Shown here: positions 27,956 to 34,308 of the stretch, piece by piece
Position numbering within the stretch: position 1 is the stretch's first letter
Layout of the letters: every line of letters starts with the position of its first letter
Assembly (NCBI GenBank): GCA_003283415.1
Contig: QBXH01000014.1
Span: 1-34,308 of the forward strand
Source: Prochlorococcus sp. AG-321-E21
GTDB lineage: Bacteria; Cyanobacteriota; Cyanobacteriia; PCC-6307; Cyanobiaceae
DNA: 34,308 nt
Direction: 5' to 3'
Translations under genes and position numbers: made by a program
Notes under the pieces: generated by a model
What the model was told of the DNA's origin: nothing
The model's input: only the letters and a program-made list of their open reading frames with translations
The model's database searches: none

Positions 27956-29542
27956 ATGAGTAAAAAATTACTAAAAAAAGAGAGAGATCCTTCAATATTA
28001 ATACTAGATTTTGGATCTCAATATTCTGAATTAATTGCGAGGAGAATAAGAGAAGCAGATGTATTTTCTCTTGTAGTTAGTAACTTTATTTCTATCAATG
28101 AGATTCAGGATATAAATCCTAAGGGAATTATTTTAAGTGGCGGCCCAAATTCTGTATATGAAGATAATGCACCTAAATGTGATGCAAAGATTTTTAATTT
28201 AGGGATTCCAGTCTTGGGTATATGTTATGGAATGCAATTAATGGTTAAAGAATTAGGAGGTACAGTAACCCCAGCAATCAATAAAGCTGAATATGGTAGG
28301 GCTCCAATAAATATTAACTGCGAAAGTGATTTGCTCTTTAATGTAAAAGACAAATCGATTATGTGGATGAGTCATGGAGATTCTATAAATAACTTACCTG
28401 AAGGATTTATTCAAATTTCTCATACAGAAAATACAATGCATGCTGCAATATCAAATAAAAAAAAGAAATTATTTGGTGTTCAATTTCATCCTGAAGTTAT
28501 TCATTCAGAATTTGGTATGACGGTAATTAAAAATTTTGTTTATTCTATTTCTCAATGTAAAGCCGATTGGACTACGGAAACCTTTTTAGAGGAAACAATT
28601 CCAAGAATTAAAGAACAAGTAGGTGATAAGAAAGTCTTATTAGCTCTTTCTGGTGGAGTAGATTCATCAACTCTTGCTTTCCTTCTTAATAAAGCTATTG
28701 GCAATCAGCTTACATGTATGTTTATAGACCAAGGCTTTATGAGAAAAGGTGAACCTGAATTTTTAATGGAATTTTTCGATAAAAAATTTCATATAAAAGT
28801 TGAATATATTAATGCTAGGGAAAGATTCACTCAAAAATTATATGGAATAACTGATCCAGAAGAAAAACGCAAGATTATTGGTGGAGAATTTATCAAAGTT
28901 TTTGAAGAAGAGAGTAATAGACTAGGTCCTTTCCAATATTTGGCTCAAGGAACTCTCTATCCAGATGTTATTGAAAGTGCTGGAACGAATTTAGATCCGA
29001 AGACAGGTGAACGGATTGCAGTAAAAATAAAAAGTCATCATAATGTTGGCGGTTTGCCAAAAGATTTGCAATTTAAATTAGTTGAACCATTAAGAAAACT
29101 TTTTAAAGATGAAGTTAGAAAACTTGGAAAGGCTCTTGGTTTGCCAGATGAAATTATTAAAAGACATCCGTTCCCAGGTCCAGGTTTGGCGATAAGAATT
29201 TTGGGTGAAGTTTCTAATGAAAAACTAAATTGTTTGAGAGATGCAGATTGGATAGTAAGAGATGAAATAAAAAAAGCAGGTCTTTATAATGATATTTGGC
29301 AAGCATTTGCTGTTCTTCTTCCTGTCAAGACTGTAGGGGTCATGGGAGACAAAAGAACTTATGCTTGGCCGATAGTTTTGCGATGCGTATCAAGCGAAGA
29401 TGGTATGACTGCAGATTGGTCAAGAATTCCTTACGAAACTTTAGAGAGAATTTCTAATAGAATCGTTAATGAAGTACCTCAGGTAAATAGAGTTGTTTTC
29501 GATATTACTAGTAAGCCTCCAGGCACAATTGAGTGGGAGTAG
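27956..29542 (+). CDS. guaA: GMP synthase (glutamine-hydrolysing)
   Basis: GuaA converts XMP to GMP using glutamine and ATP. The 528-aa protein has a GATase domain with GICYGMQLM (nucleophile Cys90), and [13 protein letters not shown] with catalytic His and Glu. The ATP-pyrophosphatase domain has the P-loop [11 protein letters not shown] (near 230), and the C-terminal dimerisation domain ends with [16 protein letters not shown]. The last six residues and stop (29525-29542) form the attachment site of the downstream element: the same peptide and a stop recur at 34081-34098 with only synonymous changes. Its own end is therefore probably rebuilt by element DNA, and the protein is unchanged. Confidence 0.97.
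29521..29542 (+). other. Left attachment site (attL) at 3' end of guaA
   Basis: The 22-base stretch ending in the guaA stop matches 34077-34098 at 17 of 22 positions, with 11 identical bases in the middle (ATTGAGTGGGA, 29528-29538). A tyrosine recombinase gene begins 222 bp downstream, which is the usual arrangement for an element inserted in a gene 3' end. If the identical block holds the crossover, bases to its left are host and bases to its right (last codon GAG and stop TAG) came with the element. Confidence 0.8.
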
Positions 29543-29763: not shown

Positions 29764-31236
29764 ATGGGTTTCCGTGGAAACAATGAGCGTACCTTCGCTG
29801 AGTACGTTGAATTAGATATTGCTGTGAATGATGACTCACCTAATGCTTACATCTATAAAAGATTAGACAGCGAAACTAATAAACTAGTTAGTGAAAGGAC
29901 TTGGTATGTAGGTATCCCCATTCCAAACAAAGGTAATGGAAAAAGATTATCTCTTCGTACTTCCGATTTATCTAATGCGAAGAAAAAAGCACTCCAAAAA
30001 GTAGTGAATATTATGTCTGACCTAGATCAAGGTGTTGATGTATGTGGAAGTAAGGTTCAAGTAATGATTGATGAGTTCCTTTCCAAGAAATTCATCAATG
30101 TACGTCTTGAAATGATGGGTAAAAAGGAAGGTGGTTGTAAAAGTATTACTAAAGATAGGTATGACAATATAAAAGGAAAACTGAAAAATTACTTTATTCC
30201 TTTTGTTGGTGCTAATACTATTGCTACTAATCTAAAACCTAAGGAGTTTGAGGAATGGGAATATTGGAGAAGGCAAGAAGAAAACTGGGCAGGTGTAGGC
30301 AAAAAGAAAAAAGCACCTTGTCAATCAACTATTGGTGATGAGATTACTTTGTTTCGTGAGGTTTGGAGATGGGGAGTCAAGAAAGGATTCATCAGATCAT
30401 CATTAGATGTCCCGTTTGATGATCATAATTTCATTGAAGATGAAAAAGTAAAAAGGGATACTTGGGAACTGAATGAATGGAAGGAGTTCCTAGACAGAGA
30501 AAGTGATTGGTATGCCTTAGAACAAAACTCTGAAGATCAAGATCGTGTTTGGGAATCATTTGTCGCTCATCAACTCATTCGTATTTGTGCTTGCTCTGGA
30601 CTTAGACCTAAAGAATGGTCTTTATTGAAGTGGAAAGATGTAAAAGATTATCCAAATGAAGATTCTATTGATGAAGAAGATAAGTTGGCGATTGAAATAA
30701 TTACTCATCCATCAACTAAAACTGGACAAAGAGAAGCATATTGTACTGGTGGTATCTGGTTCCGAAACATCTATGAAAAGACAAAGTTCAAAAGTAAAAA
30801 TGATTGGATATTTACTGATTTAGAAGGCAATAGATTAGAACCTGATTGGTTCAGCGACATATTCAATGGAGAAGGTAATTGTAATGGACTTATAGAATTT
30901 ACTAATCAATATAAATTGACAGGAAAAGAATTAGTTCCTTATTCTTTGAGGCATTTTTATGCTTCTCAATCCATATACAATGAGGTTCCTGAAGATATTA
31001 TTGCTGACAATATGGGGATAACTAAAACCAGATTGAATAGATCATATAAACATTGTTTTTTGAGGGTACGAACTAAGAGATTATTCAGTAAAAAAGGAAG
31101 TCAAGTTCCTATAAAACAAATGAGAACTTTTGGTATTGGTCAATATGCTTTCTTTACTGGAACTATGAAACAAAAAGATCCATCTTCTAGTCAAAAATCT
31201 AGAAAATTGGGTCTTAGTTTATCTCGTTTGAAGTAG
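29764..31236 (+). CDS. Tyrosine recombinase/integrase of the guaA element
   Basis: The 490-aa protein is a tyrosine-type site-specific recombinase. It has an N-terminal arm-binding-like part (about 1-90), a core-binding SAM-like domain (about 95-215, KSITKDRYDNIKGKLKNYFIPFVG...), and the catalytic domain. Visible catalytic residues are Arg281 (CACSGLRPKEWSLLKW), Lys319 (STKTGQRE), the (H/Y)xxR box as YSLRH (Tyr393, Arg396, His397) and the nucleophile Tyr428 (NRSYKH). The first His of HxxR is Tyr, and the later His/Trp position is not obvious, as in a group of phage and island recombinases. It starts 222 bp past guaA and is closed by a strong hairpin terminator. It is longer than the usual 350-420 aa because of a C-terminal extension (about 60 aa). 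It has a higher G+C content than the core genes by eye. Confidence 0.9.
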   Translation: MGFRGNNERTFAEYVELDIAVNDDSPNAYIYKRLDSETNKLVSERTWYVGIPIPNKGNGKRLSLRTSDLSNAKKKALQKVVNIMSDLDQGVDVCGSKVQVMIDEFLSKKFINVRLEMMGKKEGGCKSITKDRYDNIKGKLKNYFIPFVGANTIATNLKPKEFEEWEYWRRQEENWAGVGKKKKAPCQSTIGDEITLFREVWRWGVKKGFIRSSLDVPFDDHNFIEDEKVKRDTWELNEWKEFLDRESDWYALEQNSEDQDRVWESFVAHQLIRICACSGLRPKEWSLLKWKDVKDYPNEDSIDEEDKLAIEIITHPSTKTGQREAYCTGGIWFRNIYEKTKFKSKNDWIFTDLEGNRLEPDWFSDIFNGEGNCNGLIEFTNQYKLTGKELVPYSLRHFYASQSIYNEVPEDIIADNMGITKTRLNRSYKHCFLRVRTKRLFSKKGSQVPIKQMRTFGIGQYAFFTGTMKQKDPSSSQKSRKLGLSLSRLK

Positions 31237-31307
31237 GGGTATAAAACCCCCTATCCTATTTTTTTACTGGGCAATTTTCTTTATTTGATTGCTATCTCAA
31301 GGTAGAT
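31183..31307 (+). repeat. Repeat A, copy 1: integrase 3' end, terminator and following 40 bases
   Basis: This 125-base stretch matches 33845-33969 over its whole length, with an identical-looking tail (ACTGGGCAATTTT... GCTATCTCAAGG). It spans the last 17 integrase codons, the terminator and downstream DNA. The copy near the right end lacks the rest of the integrase, so it is the derived or older remnant. Confidence 0.85.
31233..31265 (+). terminator. Intrinsic terminator of the integrase gene
   Basis: GTAGGGG pairs with CCCCTAT (31248-31254), followed by CC and a run of seven T's to 31265. The stop codon TAG (31234-31236) is part of the left arm. A second copy lies at 33896-33927 with a perfect 8-bp stem. 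Confidence 0.75.
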
Positions 31308-31356
31308 TTCAAAGGTTTATAGGTTGATAGTATCTTCCTTTTTATATCTTGCCATC

Positions 31357-31497
31357 CTACTTTTTTAGGTTTCTATGGAAGGGTTTCTTCTTGTGTTCTT
31401 GATATTCTTGAAGTGATCATTCAGTTAGAAACTTAGGAAGTGATTTGTTATGACGTTTAGCAATTTATTCCAACATTCTGTATGTCATATCTTCTAA
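31357..31497 (-). pseudogene. Remnant of unidentified gene (repeat B, copy 1), two internal stops
   Basis: Read leftward from 31497, 47 codons align without gaps to the copy at 33712-33852. Here the frame is broken by TAA and TGA at codons 11 and 27, where the other copy has Tyr and Trp. About 33 of 46 residues match, including KSLPKF and EYQEH.KKPFHRNLKK before the shared TAG stop. Sequence similarity continues about 24 bases past the stop. No family is recognised. It lies between the integrase terminator and the acyltransferase, in the same direction as the latter. Confidence 0.75.
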
Positions 31498-31518: not shown

Positions 31519-33600
31519 CTAATTATTGGTATTACTTTTTTGAGCGTTTATTTGATTTATCATAGAAAGAAGGTCATTTGAAATCATAATCGCGCCCTCT
31601 TTGCTTAGGTGGTCATCATCACTGAATAAATAAGTATTATCTCTTGTTGAATAGCAGTTTTTCTTGTCGCAGAATTTATCAAACGGATCGAAAATATAAA
31701 TGTTATTGACTTCCATTGTTAGTGCATTTATCGCTTCAAGAATGTGCTTTCGCTGTCTTTCGAGAAAATTCCGCTCGGTTTTTTGGCAGGTGCCTGCTGG
31801 TGAAGGTCTAAACCACTGTCGTGAACAAATTTCAGGAATAAAACCTGGATGTTGCGGTAATGGAGCAACTAAAATCAAAGATGCATTTATATTTCTGAGT
31901 TTTTCAGCAAGTTTCTTGGATGCATCAATAAATCTTACTAGATTCTTGTCAACAGAACTTCTAGAGCCATCGGAATGCTTTTTGAATTGCCTGCGATGTA
32001 CACCCGTGTATCCAAAATGTGAGTTTAGGTATGATGTGGCGACAAAAAATGATCCATTCTTTCTATTACTCATCTCTTTGATCATCACTTTAGCGACAGA
32101 CGACTGAACCTCATCACAATGCCTTCTAGTGATCTCGCCTTGGGCAGGGAATGCACATCCATCTCTGCTATGAGAAAAAACATCATATTGCGATGTAGAT
32201 GCGATTACCTCGCTAATGGGAAAGATCGCGAGCGAATGACTGTCTCCGCTAAAGGCAACTAGCGGTCTTTCACTTTTTGCTGACAAACAGTTATCAATGA
32301 ATTGATTTGTGATCTGATTTGCACCTACCAAGGCATCAATTGTTTTGTCGTTGGAACTATGGCAGTCTTTTGCAATGCGCCCAGTAATATCTCCTTTGAA
32401 CTCAATTGGTTTTGTGATGGAGTTAGTGAAATCCTTACCACTATAGAGTTTTCCTTTGAGCGGTTTCCCAAGAGCGATAAGACCACCCGAAAGTGTAACT
32501 ATCACGCCTCCTCCAACTACAATTGTCTTCCATCGTTTCCCAAACCAGTTACCTTTACGAAGAGGAGTTTCTATATATCGATATGAAGCAAATGCAAGAC
32601 CAAACATAAGAGCAACTTGGAAAGGCACTGACCACCAATGAATACCGATAGTCCAACGACTTATCGAAAGGATACCCCAGTGCCATAGGTAAAGGGAATA
32701 AGAAATGAGACCTATATAAACAACTTTGGGATTTGTAAAAAATGCAAACACTCTTGTTCCCCTTTTCAAAGAAGCGATAAGAACAGATGACAAGATGACT
32801 ACTGAAATAGTCGATGCTATCGCCAAATTCATCGGCAAATACATTACCCCAATAATCAATAACAGCACTAAAAGCGGTGGTATCTTTTCAAGGAACTGTT
32901 CTATAGATTTTCTTTTTTGAAATCCAATAAATATCAAACAACCTGATGCCATTTCCCAGAATCTTGTCGGCATCAAAAAATATGCTTCTGATTGGTTGAT
33001 TGGATAGAGATATAGAAATCCAATCAACGAGGCAATTGTTAGTGTCCCAACTATTAGAAAAAGGTTGCGAGCACCATTTTTGGTTTGGCGTCCAAATCCA
33101 GAAAACCAAATCAGGAAGGGAAAGAGGATATAGAACTGCTCTTCAACTCCAAGAGACCAAGTGTGAGTGAATGTATTTAGTTCTGTTGTTTGAGCAAAGT
33201 AGTTAGTTGATTGTTTGAGTAGGTATAGGTTTGATAATCCAAATAAAGAAGTCAAAGCTGTTTGTAAAGAAAGACCAGGGTGTGGATTGAATAAGCAAAT
33301 CGCAATACTCGTAATCAGCACAAATACTGAAAGTGCAGGAACTAATCTTTTGATCCTGCGTTCATAAAATCCACTAATGAAATCCTTGAAGTTTTTACTT
33401 GGTCTTTGATAAAGAGATGATGTTATGACAAATCCTGAAATTACAAAAAAGATATCAACTCCAAGGTATCCATTTGGCAGTATTTCTTTATTGAAGTGAT
33501 TGATAATGACAGCGACTACGGCAAATGCTCTTAGACCATCAATCTCTGGACGATATCGACTTTTTATGGATAATTTATTTTCTTCGATATCTATTGACAT
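31519..33600 (-). CDS. OafA-type membrane O-acyltransferase with SGNH domain
   Basis: The 693-aa protein has an N-terminal acyltransferase-3 domain of about ten membrane helices (about 20-375) and a C-terminal extracytoplasmic SGNH-like domain (about 400-690). Signatures are YRPEIDGLRAFAVVAVIINHF (conserved His about 35), GYLGVDIFFVISGFVI, HTWSLGVEEQFYILFP, YSLYLWHW, then SGNH block I FSGDSHS (about 451-456) and a block V-like DDDHLSKEG (Asp and His about 661-664). Proteins of this fused type move acetyl groups to sugars of O-antigen or exopolysaccharide in the cell envelope. ATG at 33600 is preferred over a TTG just before it. It is the only intact cargo gene of the element, is more G+C-rich than the core by eye, and is oriented against the integrase. 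Relatives encoded by temperate phages cause serotype conversion, so a surface-masking role is plausible, but the substrate is unknown. Confidence 0.92.
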   Translation of the reverse strand: MSIDIEENKLSIKSRYRPEIDGLRAFAVVAVIINHFNKEILPNGYLGVDIFFVISGFVITSSLYQRPSKNFKDFISGFYERRIKRLVPALSVFVLITSIAICLFNPHPGLSLQTALTSLFGLSNLYLLKQSTNYFAQTTELNTFTHTWSLGVEEQFYILFPFLIWFSGFGRQTKNGARNLFLIVGTLTIASLIGFLYLYPINQSEAYFLMPTRFWEMASGCLIFIGFQKRKSIEQFLEKIPPLLVLLLIIGVMYLPMNLAIASTISVVILSSVLIASLKRGTRVFAFFTNPKVVYIGLISYSLYLWHWGILSISRWTIGIHWWSVPFQVALMFGLAFASYRYIETPLRKGNWFGKRWKTIVVGGGVIVTLSGGLIALGKPLKGKLYSGKDFTNSITKPIEFKGDITGRIAKDCHSSNDKTIDALVGANQITNQFIDNCLSAKSERPLVAFSGDSHSLAIFPISEVIASTSQYDVFSHSRDGCAFPAQGEITRRHCDEVQSSVAKVMIKEMSNRKNGSFFVATSYLNSHFGYTGVHRRQFKKHSDGSRSSVDKNLVRFIDASKKLAEKLRNINASLILVAPLPQHPGFIPEICSRQWFRPSPAGTCQKTERNFLERQRKHILEAINALTMEVNNIYIFDPFDKFCDKKNCYSTRDNTYLFSDDDHLSKEGAIMISNDLLSMINQINAQKSNTNN

Positions 33601-33711
33601 CAAAAATTACTAACTAATAATTATTAGTTTATGGCGTATCCTCAAATTTCACAAACATTTTATATATCGCTTTTCAAGTTTTGAGTACCTTGGTTTTTAT
33701 ATCTGCTCATC

Positions 33712-33852
33712 CTACTTTTTTAGGTTTCTATGGAATGGTTTCTTCTCGTGTTCTTGATACTCTTGAAACGACCATTCAGTATGAAACTTAGGTAGAGATT
33801 TGTGATTTTGTTTAGCAATATATTCCAATATTCTGAACATCATATCTTCTAG
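33712..33852 (-). pseudogene. Remnant or small gene of unidentified family (repeat B, copy 2), frame open
   Basis: Read leftward from 33852 the 47 codons are open to TAG at 33712-33714: LEDMMFRILEYIAKQNHK, then SLPKFHTEWSFQEYQEH and EKKPFHRNLKK. The frame stays open further upstream through the integrase remnant, which is not expected of the original gene. An ATG at 33843 with AGAAG just upstream would give a 43-aa product, so it could be a live small gene. More likely it is the C-terminal end of a larger gene that was cut at the TCTTCTAG junction (33845-33852). Copy 1 is clearly dead. No family is recognised. Confidence 0.6.
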
Positions 33853-33969
33853 AAATAAATCTAGAAAAATAGAACTCTTCTTATCTGATTTAGAAGTAGG
33901 GGTATAAAAACCCCTACCCTATTTTTTACTGGGCAATTTTTTTTATTTGATTGCTATCTCAAGGTCGAT
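33845..33969 (+). pseudogene. Integrase 3' stump plus terminator (repeat A, copy 2)
   Basis: This matches the end of the resident integrase gene and the DNA after it (31183-31307). Translated, SSRNKSRKIELFLSDLE aligns with the integrase tail SSSQKSRKLGLSLSRLK; a one-base insertion before the stop shifts the frame so it reads past the original TAG. The rest of that integrase is missing. The left edge coincides with repeat B, sharing TCTTCTAG. It is evidence of an earlier integrase copy at this end of the element. Confidence 0.75.
33896..33927 (+). terminator. Intrinsic terminator (copy in integrase stump)
   Basis: GTAGGGGT and ACCCCTAC form a perfect 8-pair stem around the loop ATAAAA, followed by CC, TA and six T's. 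It is the better-kept of the two terminator copies and would stop transcription running rightward towards the right attachment site. Confidence 0.75.
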
Positions 33970-33973
33970 CTAA

Positions 33974-34146
33974 AAACCTAGTTATAGATTTAAAAAAAAG
34001 GTTTCCCGTGGGAAAATAGATGTTATAATACGCTCAAATCCGTTGCAATATCTACGTTGTTTACTATGATTTTCTCAGGTACTATTGAGTGGGAATGAAA
34101 ATAAGTTATAAACCTAGTTATAGTCTAAAAAAATAGGTTTCACGTG
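33974..34146 (+). repeat. Paired 37-bp direct repeats bracketing the right attachment site
   Basis: Copies at 33974-34010 and 34110-34146 match at 32 of 37 positions, both beginning AAACCTAGTTATAG and ending GTG. Each contains its own inverted repeat: AAACCTA with TAGGTTT (34110-34116/34134-34140, perfect), and AAACCT with AGGTTT in the first. The first copy is followed by TTTCCC-GT-GGGAAA symmetry. One copy is inside the element and one outside the att core, which a single clean insertion would not give. Confidence 0.75.
34077..34098 (+). other. Right attachment site (attR), duplicate of guaA end
   Basis: The sequence reads Gly-Thr-Ile-Glu-Trp-Glu-stop (GGT ACT ATT GAG TGG GAA TGA), the same peptide as the guaA C-terminus, but with changes at third positions and the stop. 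The 11 identical bases are 34084-34094. A few codons upstream similarity to guaA ends (ATGATTTTCTCA has no counterpart), as expected at an element boundary. Confidence 0.8.
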
Positions 34147-34192
34147 AGTTTCACGCGAAGCAAAAAGTACGTCTCTACAGAGAAATCGAAAA
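34099..34192 (+). mobile_element. Element-like remnant beyond the right attachment site
   Basis: Past the right core there is a second copy of the 37-bp repeat (34110-34146), and then GTCTCTACAGAGAAATC (34171-34187). The latter matches CATCTCCACAGAGAAATC in the integrase leader at the left end (29699-29716). So this stretch looks like the left end of another element whose genes are gone, lying next to the present one. Ordinary AT-rich DNA resumes after about 34195. Confidence 0.55.
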
Positions 34193-34308
34193 AAGCGTTA
34201 TTCTCTACACTTTTTTTGTTTAATTTTCAATAAAGTTTTTTATTTAATTTCAGTTAAATTTAATTTATTAATATCTTAAATATTTTCGGGTAAATTCCAT
34301 TCAAAATA
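34193..34308. other. AT-rich flank to window end
   Basis: About 115 bp of very AT-rich DNA typical of core intergenic sequence. No gene, RNA or repeat is seen. It is probably the start of the host region that lay after guaA before insertion. Confidence 0.3.

Follow-up and report, generated by a model that had tools for sequence, protein, structure and literature searches.

The window analysed here is a complete contig (C14, 34,308 bp) of the Prochlorococcus genome G000, an assembly of 1.31 Mb in 48 contigs that is 73% complete. By Pfam and repeat analysis, the integration target in this window is guaA, which encodes GMP synthase (27956-29542, plus strand) and the 3' end of which forms the left att site. 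A direct repeat search showed that 19 bases of this 3' end (29520-29538, plus strand) recur with two changes at 34076-34094 on the same strand, so that the left and right att copies lie 4,556 bp apart and bound a unit of 4.56 kb. An 11-base core, ATTGAGTGGGA, is exact in the left (29528-29538) and right (34084-34094) copies, and both copies contain the core GAGTGGGA that is known for guaA att sites. Allowing up to one mismatch, the chance expectation for the att core is 0.39 matches over the window, and two are obtained in 4 of 100 shuffled sequences. The window thus has the features by which guaA islands are recognised, namely the guaA 3' end, the GAGTGGGA core and direct repeats at both ends, and it has no P4-type integrase with an adjacent AlpA, which is a further mark of such islands. 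No tRNA gene was found in the window and the integration site is guaA, which places the unit outside the definition of tycheposons.

Inside the unit, guaA is followed by a gene for a tyrosine integrase (29764-31236, plus strand; PF00589, PHROG 1), which has an intact reading frame of 490 aa and for which Pfam reported PF00589 alone at E 0.001. Repeat A (31182-31313, plus strand) covers the 3' tail of the integrase gene and the sequence 3' of it; in its second copy, repeat A' (33844-33975, plus strand), the integrase tail persists in decayed form. Between these copies lies a gene for a fused acyltransferase-3/SGNH protein (AT3-SGNH; 31519-33603, minus strand), the sole intact cargo. This gene is itself bracketed by direct repeats, with repeat B (31316-31496, plus strand) on its 3' side and repeat B' (33671-33851, plus strand; 83% identical to repeat B) on its 5' side. 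We considered whether repeat B is a piece of a second integrase body and found no significant match in a translated comparison. To the left of the right att copy lies an arm (33976-34075, plus strand) in which 76 bp are 95% identical to the corresponding arm of a G046 cassette with restriction genes (L071), and further hotspot-like sequence (34095-34308, plus strand) extends from the right att copy to the contig end. No open reading frame of at least 50 aa was found in the guaA-integrase gap, in the integrase-AT3-SGNH gap or, outside the AT3-SGNH gene, in the rest of the stretch from the integrase to the right att copy. Structural, packaging and lysis genes are likewise absent from the unit, which consists of the integrase and AT3-SGNH only. 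The two 1-kb segments of the contig with the highest G+C content (0.387 and 0.400) both lie in the AT3-SGNH gene. The initial annotation had described the acyltransferase-3 plus SGNH protein as the only intact cargo, and with one intact cargo frame this is true of the 4.56-kb unit. Since the contig stops 214 bp past the right att copy, where hotspot-like sequence runs on, the description holds for the unit and not necessarily for the whole guaA site of G000. Contig C5 of G000 carries the core gene that is usually next to guaA, and its end does not overlap the end of the window.

The AT3-SGNH frame is open over 694 codons; its first codon is TTG with an ATG right after, and translation therefore likely starts at 33600. 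Pfam placed Acyl_transf_3 (PF01757) at residues 19-339 (6e-27) and SGNH at residues 434-677 (4e-27), and PHROG 6705, 'O-antigen acetylase', matched residues 13-681 (1e-106). The window protein has R25-X10-H36, which we take to be the Arg-X10-His motif of AT3, as well as S455, D662 and H665. In a family alignment of 54 proteins, from which the twice-fetched loci L010, L012 and L014 had been dropped, S455 was conserved in all 54 rows, D662 in 51 of 52 and H665 in 52 of 52. Ser, Asp and His make up the SGNH triad according to PMC7448272. An AlphaFold2 model of the protein had a mean pLDDT of 85, and the best PDB match in a fold search was the periplasmic domain of OafB (6se1; E 1e-4, TM 0.64 by target length, 16% identity), while phmmer against the PDB sequences returned no match. 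The O-antigen acetylase of Pseudomonas phage D3 is a full-length homologue with 26% identity over 98% of the query. Relatives with 26-30% identity were also seen in SAR11 single-cell genomes (uncultured Pelagibacteraceae AG-447-B20 and AG-453-D05; L180, L194). Pattern scans of IMG/VR with AT3-SGNH and with the integrase confirmed no relative; these scans, like the single-protein scans of GTDB, use short peptide patterns and detect close relatives only. Domains, motifs, predicted fold and homology together indicate that the window protein is probably an acyltransferase of the surface-glycan type, which bears out the surface-polysaccharide acylating class proposed for it earlier; its enzyme activity and acceptor are predictions from sequence.

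To place the unit in context, we searched 266 genomes of the genus and found the C-terminal part of guaA in 218 and the next core gene, which encodes a PD-(D/E)XK protein, in 221. Among the matches listed for both genes (the best 150 places each), the pair lay on one contig and strand in 90 genomes, and the distance from guaA to the next core gene was 40-75 bp in 31 of these, 191-555 bp in 12 and 1.07-20 kb in 47. The guaA 3' end is an insertion hotspot. We read 62 guaA loci, picked as near relatives of the window or for their long inserts and thus not a random sample; 57 were occupied and four had at most 204 bp. The remaining one, in G041 (L106; G041:C1:35000-54900), was set aside since guaA there is seemingly followed by core genes and the next-core-gene match is 22 kb off on the opposite strand. 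The core genes in question (alanyl-tRNA synthetase, ArgJ, GatB, CoaE and NDK) are among the families of the A2 scan, in which L106 supplies 11 of 35 members, and they were assigned to L106 by length.

A 20-base att pattern, with up to three mismatches allowed, was matched 55 times on the guaA strand across the 323,858 bp of the 57 occupied islands. Thirty-eight islands had a copy, 13 of them at least two, and the pattern was absent from the other 19. On the other strand, one copy was found in the 343 kb of all 62 loci, and this copy lies within the G041 locus. A shuffle control gave one match in three rounds over equal lengths; single bases were permuted in it, using not the islands themselves but pieces of these loci that were as long as the islands. 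Among the closed occupied islands, 35 of 52 had an att copy, and in 17 of these 35 the right-most copy was 68-97 bp from the next core gene. Cassettes with unlike cargo have att arms in common, as seen for the 76 bp shared by the window and the G046 restriction cassette, and att-bounded units without a recombinase stand beside units that have one, the arrangement by which accreted islands are recognised. In the literature that we searched, most of it outside subscription journals, there was no description of a Prochlorococcus guaA hotspot or of AT3/SGNH mosaicism.

Integrases are rare at this hotspot. Among 63 genomes, PF00589 was found inside the guaA island of G000, G026, G009 and G234 only, and G182, from outside this set, has a guaA-island integrase too. 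At E 1e-12, seven of the 266 genomes had a relative of the window integrase: these five, G203, where a 55-residue relic lies by AT3-SGNH, and G194, where the relative is not on a guaA contig. A tblastn search of a plasmid collection with the window integrase gave no match, and a pattern scan of GTDB contigs confirmed no relative. The guaA elements of G026, G009, G234 and G182 (L041:4190-10242, L042:587-8736, L064 and L146) are larger and have a common integrase family. These four share two conserved proteins without an assigned role (266 and 316 aa in G026); a helicase-like protein is common to the elements of G009 and G182, and a serine recombinase to those of G026 and G009. Relics of the integrase or its flanks adjoin AT3-SGNH in G203, G118, G156 (5' flank only), G008 and G248, which indicates that integrase and AT3-SGNH have been partnered more often than the single intact case shows.

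The occurrence of the same integrase family in larger elements could mean that the window unit is an immobile, decayed remnant of a guaA element with integrase, replication genes and recombinase, as in G026 and G009, in which AT3-SGNH is a passenger left by deletion. The repeated integrase tail in the window would fit such a history, as would G118, where a fragment of the 266-aa protein known from the larger elements is found next to AT3-SGNH. We nevertheless consider this unlikely, since the integrase frame is intact over all its 490 aa, the att cores are exact at both sides and att-bounded AT3-SGNH units recur in other genomes. Moreover, the C-terminal part of guaA in G147 is 100% identical to that in the window, and the 10.3 kb after it contain neither the integrase nor AT3-SGNH. 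In our preferred reading, the unit with integrase and AT3-SGNH would be an integrative cassette specific for guaA.

The other cargo at guaA was then compared. A profile made from five Pfam-confirmed domains detected sulfotransferase domains, often behind TPR repeats, in 26 of the 62 loci read, all 26 being among the 57 occupied ones. A lone TPR-sulfotransferase gene of ~490-530 aa on the strand opposite to guaA was common (e.g. in L094, L096, L097, L098 and L100). Restriction or related proteins were assigned singly to L067, L068, L071 and L072, while L057 has a member of one restriction-related family and L069 an MkoA-like protein. A MurA-like protein and MreB occur together in seven loci (L048, L053, L054, L059, L061, L067 and L069) and MreB occurs without MurA in L063 (L063:1997-3118), where the contig ends; these cell-wall and shape genes seem to travel as a cassette. 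Six of the MurA-like/MreB islands also have a sulfotransferase of the L048:2282-3226 family. The scans by family alignment, with at most 25 families listed per scan, give the cargo as a lower bound and do not assign it to loci. The initial annotation had suggested that a survey of guaA elements might reveal a surface or defence theme. Sulfotransferases, AT3-SGNH and restriction proteins do give the cargo such a leaning, but asparagine synthase, carbamoyltransferase and M20 peptidase, which lack a clear role of this kind, are also among the cargo families. The theme is real, not exclusive.

Relatives of AT3-SGNH at E ≤1e-30 were present in 49 of the 266 genomes, a patchy distribution that is not that of a core gene. 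Had the orthologs for the most part been confined to fixed core positions throughout the relatives, this would have spoken against the island proposed earlier; the genes were instead found at several sites. We read the flanks in 44 of the 49 carrier genomes (all except G111, G164, G230, G246 and G265), and the contigs of G248 and G295 were too short for placing the gene. AT3-SGNH lies in the guaA hotspot in 15 genomes, with both flanks on the contig in eight (G021, G027, G042, G169, G277, G118, G011 and G107), the guaA flank only in four (G000, G203, G007 and G116) and the next-core-gene flank only in three (G156, G008 and G218, the last without a detected att copy). G042 is Prochlorococcus sp. 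AG-347-L02. Two att copies flank AT3-SGNH in G277, G008 and G116, where no intact integrase accompanies the gene. A single mismatch in 14 bases is seen in each of the two G008 copies, in one of the two G277 copies and likewise in one of the two G116 copies. The earlier proposal of a stand-alone island is thus matched by att-bounded AT3-SGNH units in these three genomes, whereas in G000 the hotspot continues past the unit.

The AT3 subtype of the window is concentrated at guaA, with 15 of the 17 guaA proteins belonging to it as compared to 9 of the 37 others. These 37 of the 54 aligned proteins were not placed at guaA, some of them on contigs that are too short, so guaA is a frequent carrier and not the sole one. 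At approximately seven AT3-SGNH loci away from guaA, the flanks were mostly core-gene families (46 proteins from 7 loci, among the families listed). Clusters of two to three AT3-SGNH genes within 20 kb, with diverged AT3 halves, were seen off guaA at L126 (G280), L128 (G240), L127 (G219), L131 (G059) and L133 (G212). The share of proteins beyond guaA could be taken to mean that AT3-SGNH owes its spread to homologous recombination in flanking repeats and core genes, with no more than an incidental role for the guaA integrase. Direct repeats B bracket the gene not only in the window but also in G008, and the tandem G169 genes, which are identical in their 5' parts, are in line with recombination of this type. 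The subtype bias towards guaA, the integrase or flank relics beside AT3-SGNH in five genomes and the att-bounded copies in several genomes all argue against it, and we regard such a mode of spread as improbable. We therefore retain transfer as a guaA cassette as the preferred reading.

The alignment revealed a sharp difference between the two parts of the protein. Column identity declines from about residue 360 and falls steeply past residue 390, with the last hydrophobic segment at 361-379, and we split the halves at residue 390. Of the 165 pairs whose AT3 halves share at least 75% identity, 132 had SGNH halves that were less than 35% identical (median 19%). The SGNH halves fell into 31 types (45% identity, single linkage), and the 24 proteins with an AT3 half at least 75% identical to that of the window, the window itself included, had nine of these types. 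For the SGNH half of the window the best relative here was in G199, at 38% identity (55% in the AT3 half). Conversely, the same SGNH type occurs on AT3 halves that are ~60% identical. The step in identity between AT3 and SGNH is also visible at the codon level. In the tandem genes of G169, 115 upstream and 1,115 coding bases are identical, up to codon 372, and are followed by unrelated SGNH modules; an assembly error might have produced this arrangement. A tree of the AT3 halves (51 rows; three of the 54 have short AT3 halves and were omitted) was compared with trees constrained by SGNH type. Grouping the 12 rows of type T0 was rejected (p 2.8e-8), grouping the six rows of type T1 was not (p 0.114), and the strongly supported branches by themselves force one change each for T0 and T1.

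The same divergence might have arisen if SGNH halves underwent fast diversifying evolution in place and no exchange took place. Their catalytic positions are kept, as expected of fast-evolving homologues, and the T1 grouping is compatible with the AT3-half tree. This explanation is, however, very unlikely in our judgement: it is at odds with the abrupt codon-level step, the rejection of the T0 grouping, the occurrence of one SGNH type on AT3 halves ~60% identical and the G169 genes, in which DNA-identical 5' parts give way to unrelated SGNH modules. We thus favour exchange of the SGNH half. Neither this domain mosaicism nor the cassette structure of the hotspot was part of the initial annotation.

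Taken jointly, we consider the following model likely. The unit would be a guaA-specific integrative cassette of Prochlorococcus; the hotspot would be a pile-up of att-bounded cassettes, few of which have their own integrase; the cargo enzyme would acylate surface glycans; and its family, a constant/variable mosaic with a near-constant AT3 half, would owe its variable SGNH half to exchange through recombination. In this model, the tyrosine integrase would act on the att copies, recombining the ATTGAGTGGGA core with the guaA 3' end in such a way that guaA stays whole, and an integrase like that of the window could move integrase-less cassettes in trans. The AT3 domain would move an acyl group, which is probably acetyl, through the membrane, and the SGNH domain would hand it to a surface-glycan acceptor. 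An SGNH swap would take place within the final membrane helix or immediately behind it (residues ~370-390), with the transport half kept, and repeats B together with the common AT3 half may provide the homology for it. In Salmonella OafA/OafB, the SGNH extension is reported to confer acceptor specificity (PMC7448272; also PMC9558356), and the window gene can therefore be read as a mobile gene for surface acylation in which the acceptor specificity is open to exchange. Since the AT3 half is kept and the SGNH half exchanged, acquisition or swap would change the acylated sugar or position.

Whether the modified acceptor is a phage receptor is a separate matter. AT3 proteins have many roles according to PMC9558356, and it is quite possible, though we lean the other way, that the acceptor is no phage receptor and that acylation serves another role, e.g. 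in grazing, wall stability or glycolipid export. Phage relatives of the enzyme are labelled O-antigen acetylase, restriction systems occupy the same guaA site, and the same source describes O-antigen acetylation by phage SF6 as leading to immunity to superinfection; by analogy, AT3-SGNH may bring a benefit against phage. For the question of how the Prochlorococcus surface changes under phage pressure, the empty and filled guaA sites, together with the exchanged probable acceptor module, provide natural variants distinguished chiefly by a single cassette or SGNH module. Type I restriction enzymes exchange specificity domains. With this parallel in mind, we tentatively propose two layers of surface diversification: rare integrases might serve integrase-less guaA cassettes with shared att arms, and within a constant/variable O-acyltransferase the acceptor domain might be exchanged between tandem or incoming copies with a near-identical membrane half.

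Temperate phages that convert the serotype of enteric bacteria carry an integrase and a surface acyltransferase on a mobile unit. The parallel to them in the initial annotation is strengthened by the D3 O-antigen acetylase homologue and stops at the lack of any phage gene: the integrase and acyltransferase are alike, but the window has a 4.56-kb att-bounded unit in an integrase-poor hotspot. OafA/OafB and the D3 enzyme resemble the window protein in domain order, Ser/Asp/His residues and SGNH-half fold, whereas the window family is set apart by its low identity to D3 and by the exchange of SGNH halves on a near-constant AT3 half. Cis-mobilizable elements are att-bounded units without their own recombinase that are stacked at one site, and the known ones derive from conjugative elements. 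The guaA islands studied here likewise contain stacked recombinase-less att-bounded units, but no conjugation gene was found among the families listed. Tycheposons, as described in PMC10872708 and PMC11389934, are cargo-carrying Prochlorococcus elements with a tyrosine recombinase; they share genus, cargo and recombinase type with the window unit and differ in their site, which is at tRNA genes and not at guaA.

The closest counterparts in terms of site are GIsul2 and ICERspD18B. According to PMC9376610, GIsul2 lies at the guaA 3' end with the core GAGTGGGA and three att sites, and its integrase excises both the island and an integrase-less sub-unit; PMC7775301 gives ACAATNGAGTGGGAATNNTT as the direct repeat of ICERspD18B and describes guaA islands with P4-type integrases and AlpA. 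As far as these sources go, GIsul2/CR2-sul2 and ICERspD18B resemble the window in being inserted at GAGTGGGA in the guaA 3' end between direct-repeat att sites, and the GIsul2 sub-unit moved by the island's integrase resembles the integrase-less cassettes found here. In contrast, those islands carry resistance or conjugation genes and P4-type integrases with AlpA, while the window unit has a single surface-type enzyme and an integrase recognised by PF00589 only and unmatched among the plasmids. For the guaA GAGTGGGA site, the published cases referred to here are proteobacterial islands whose integrases are of the P4 type; the window extends it to another kind of integrase in cyanobacteria.
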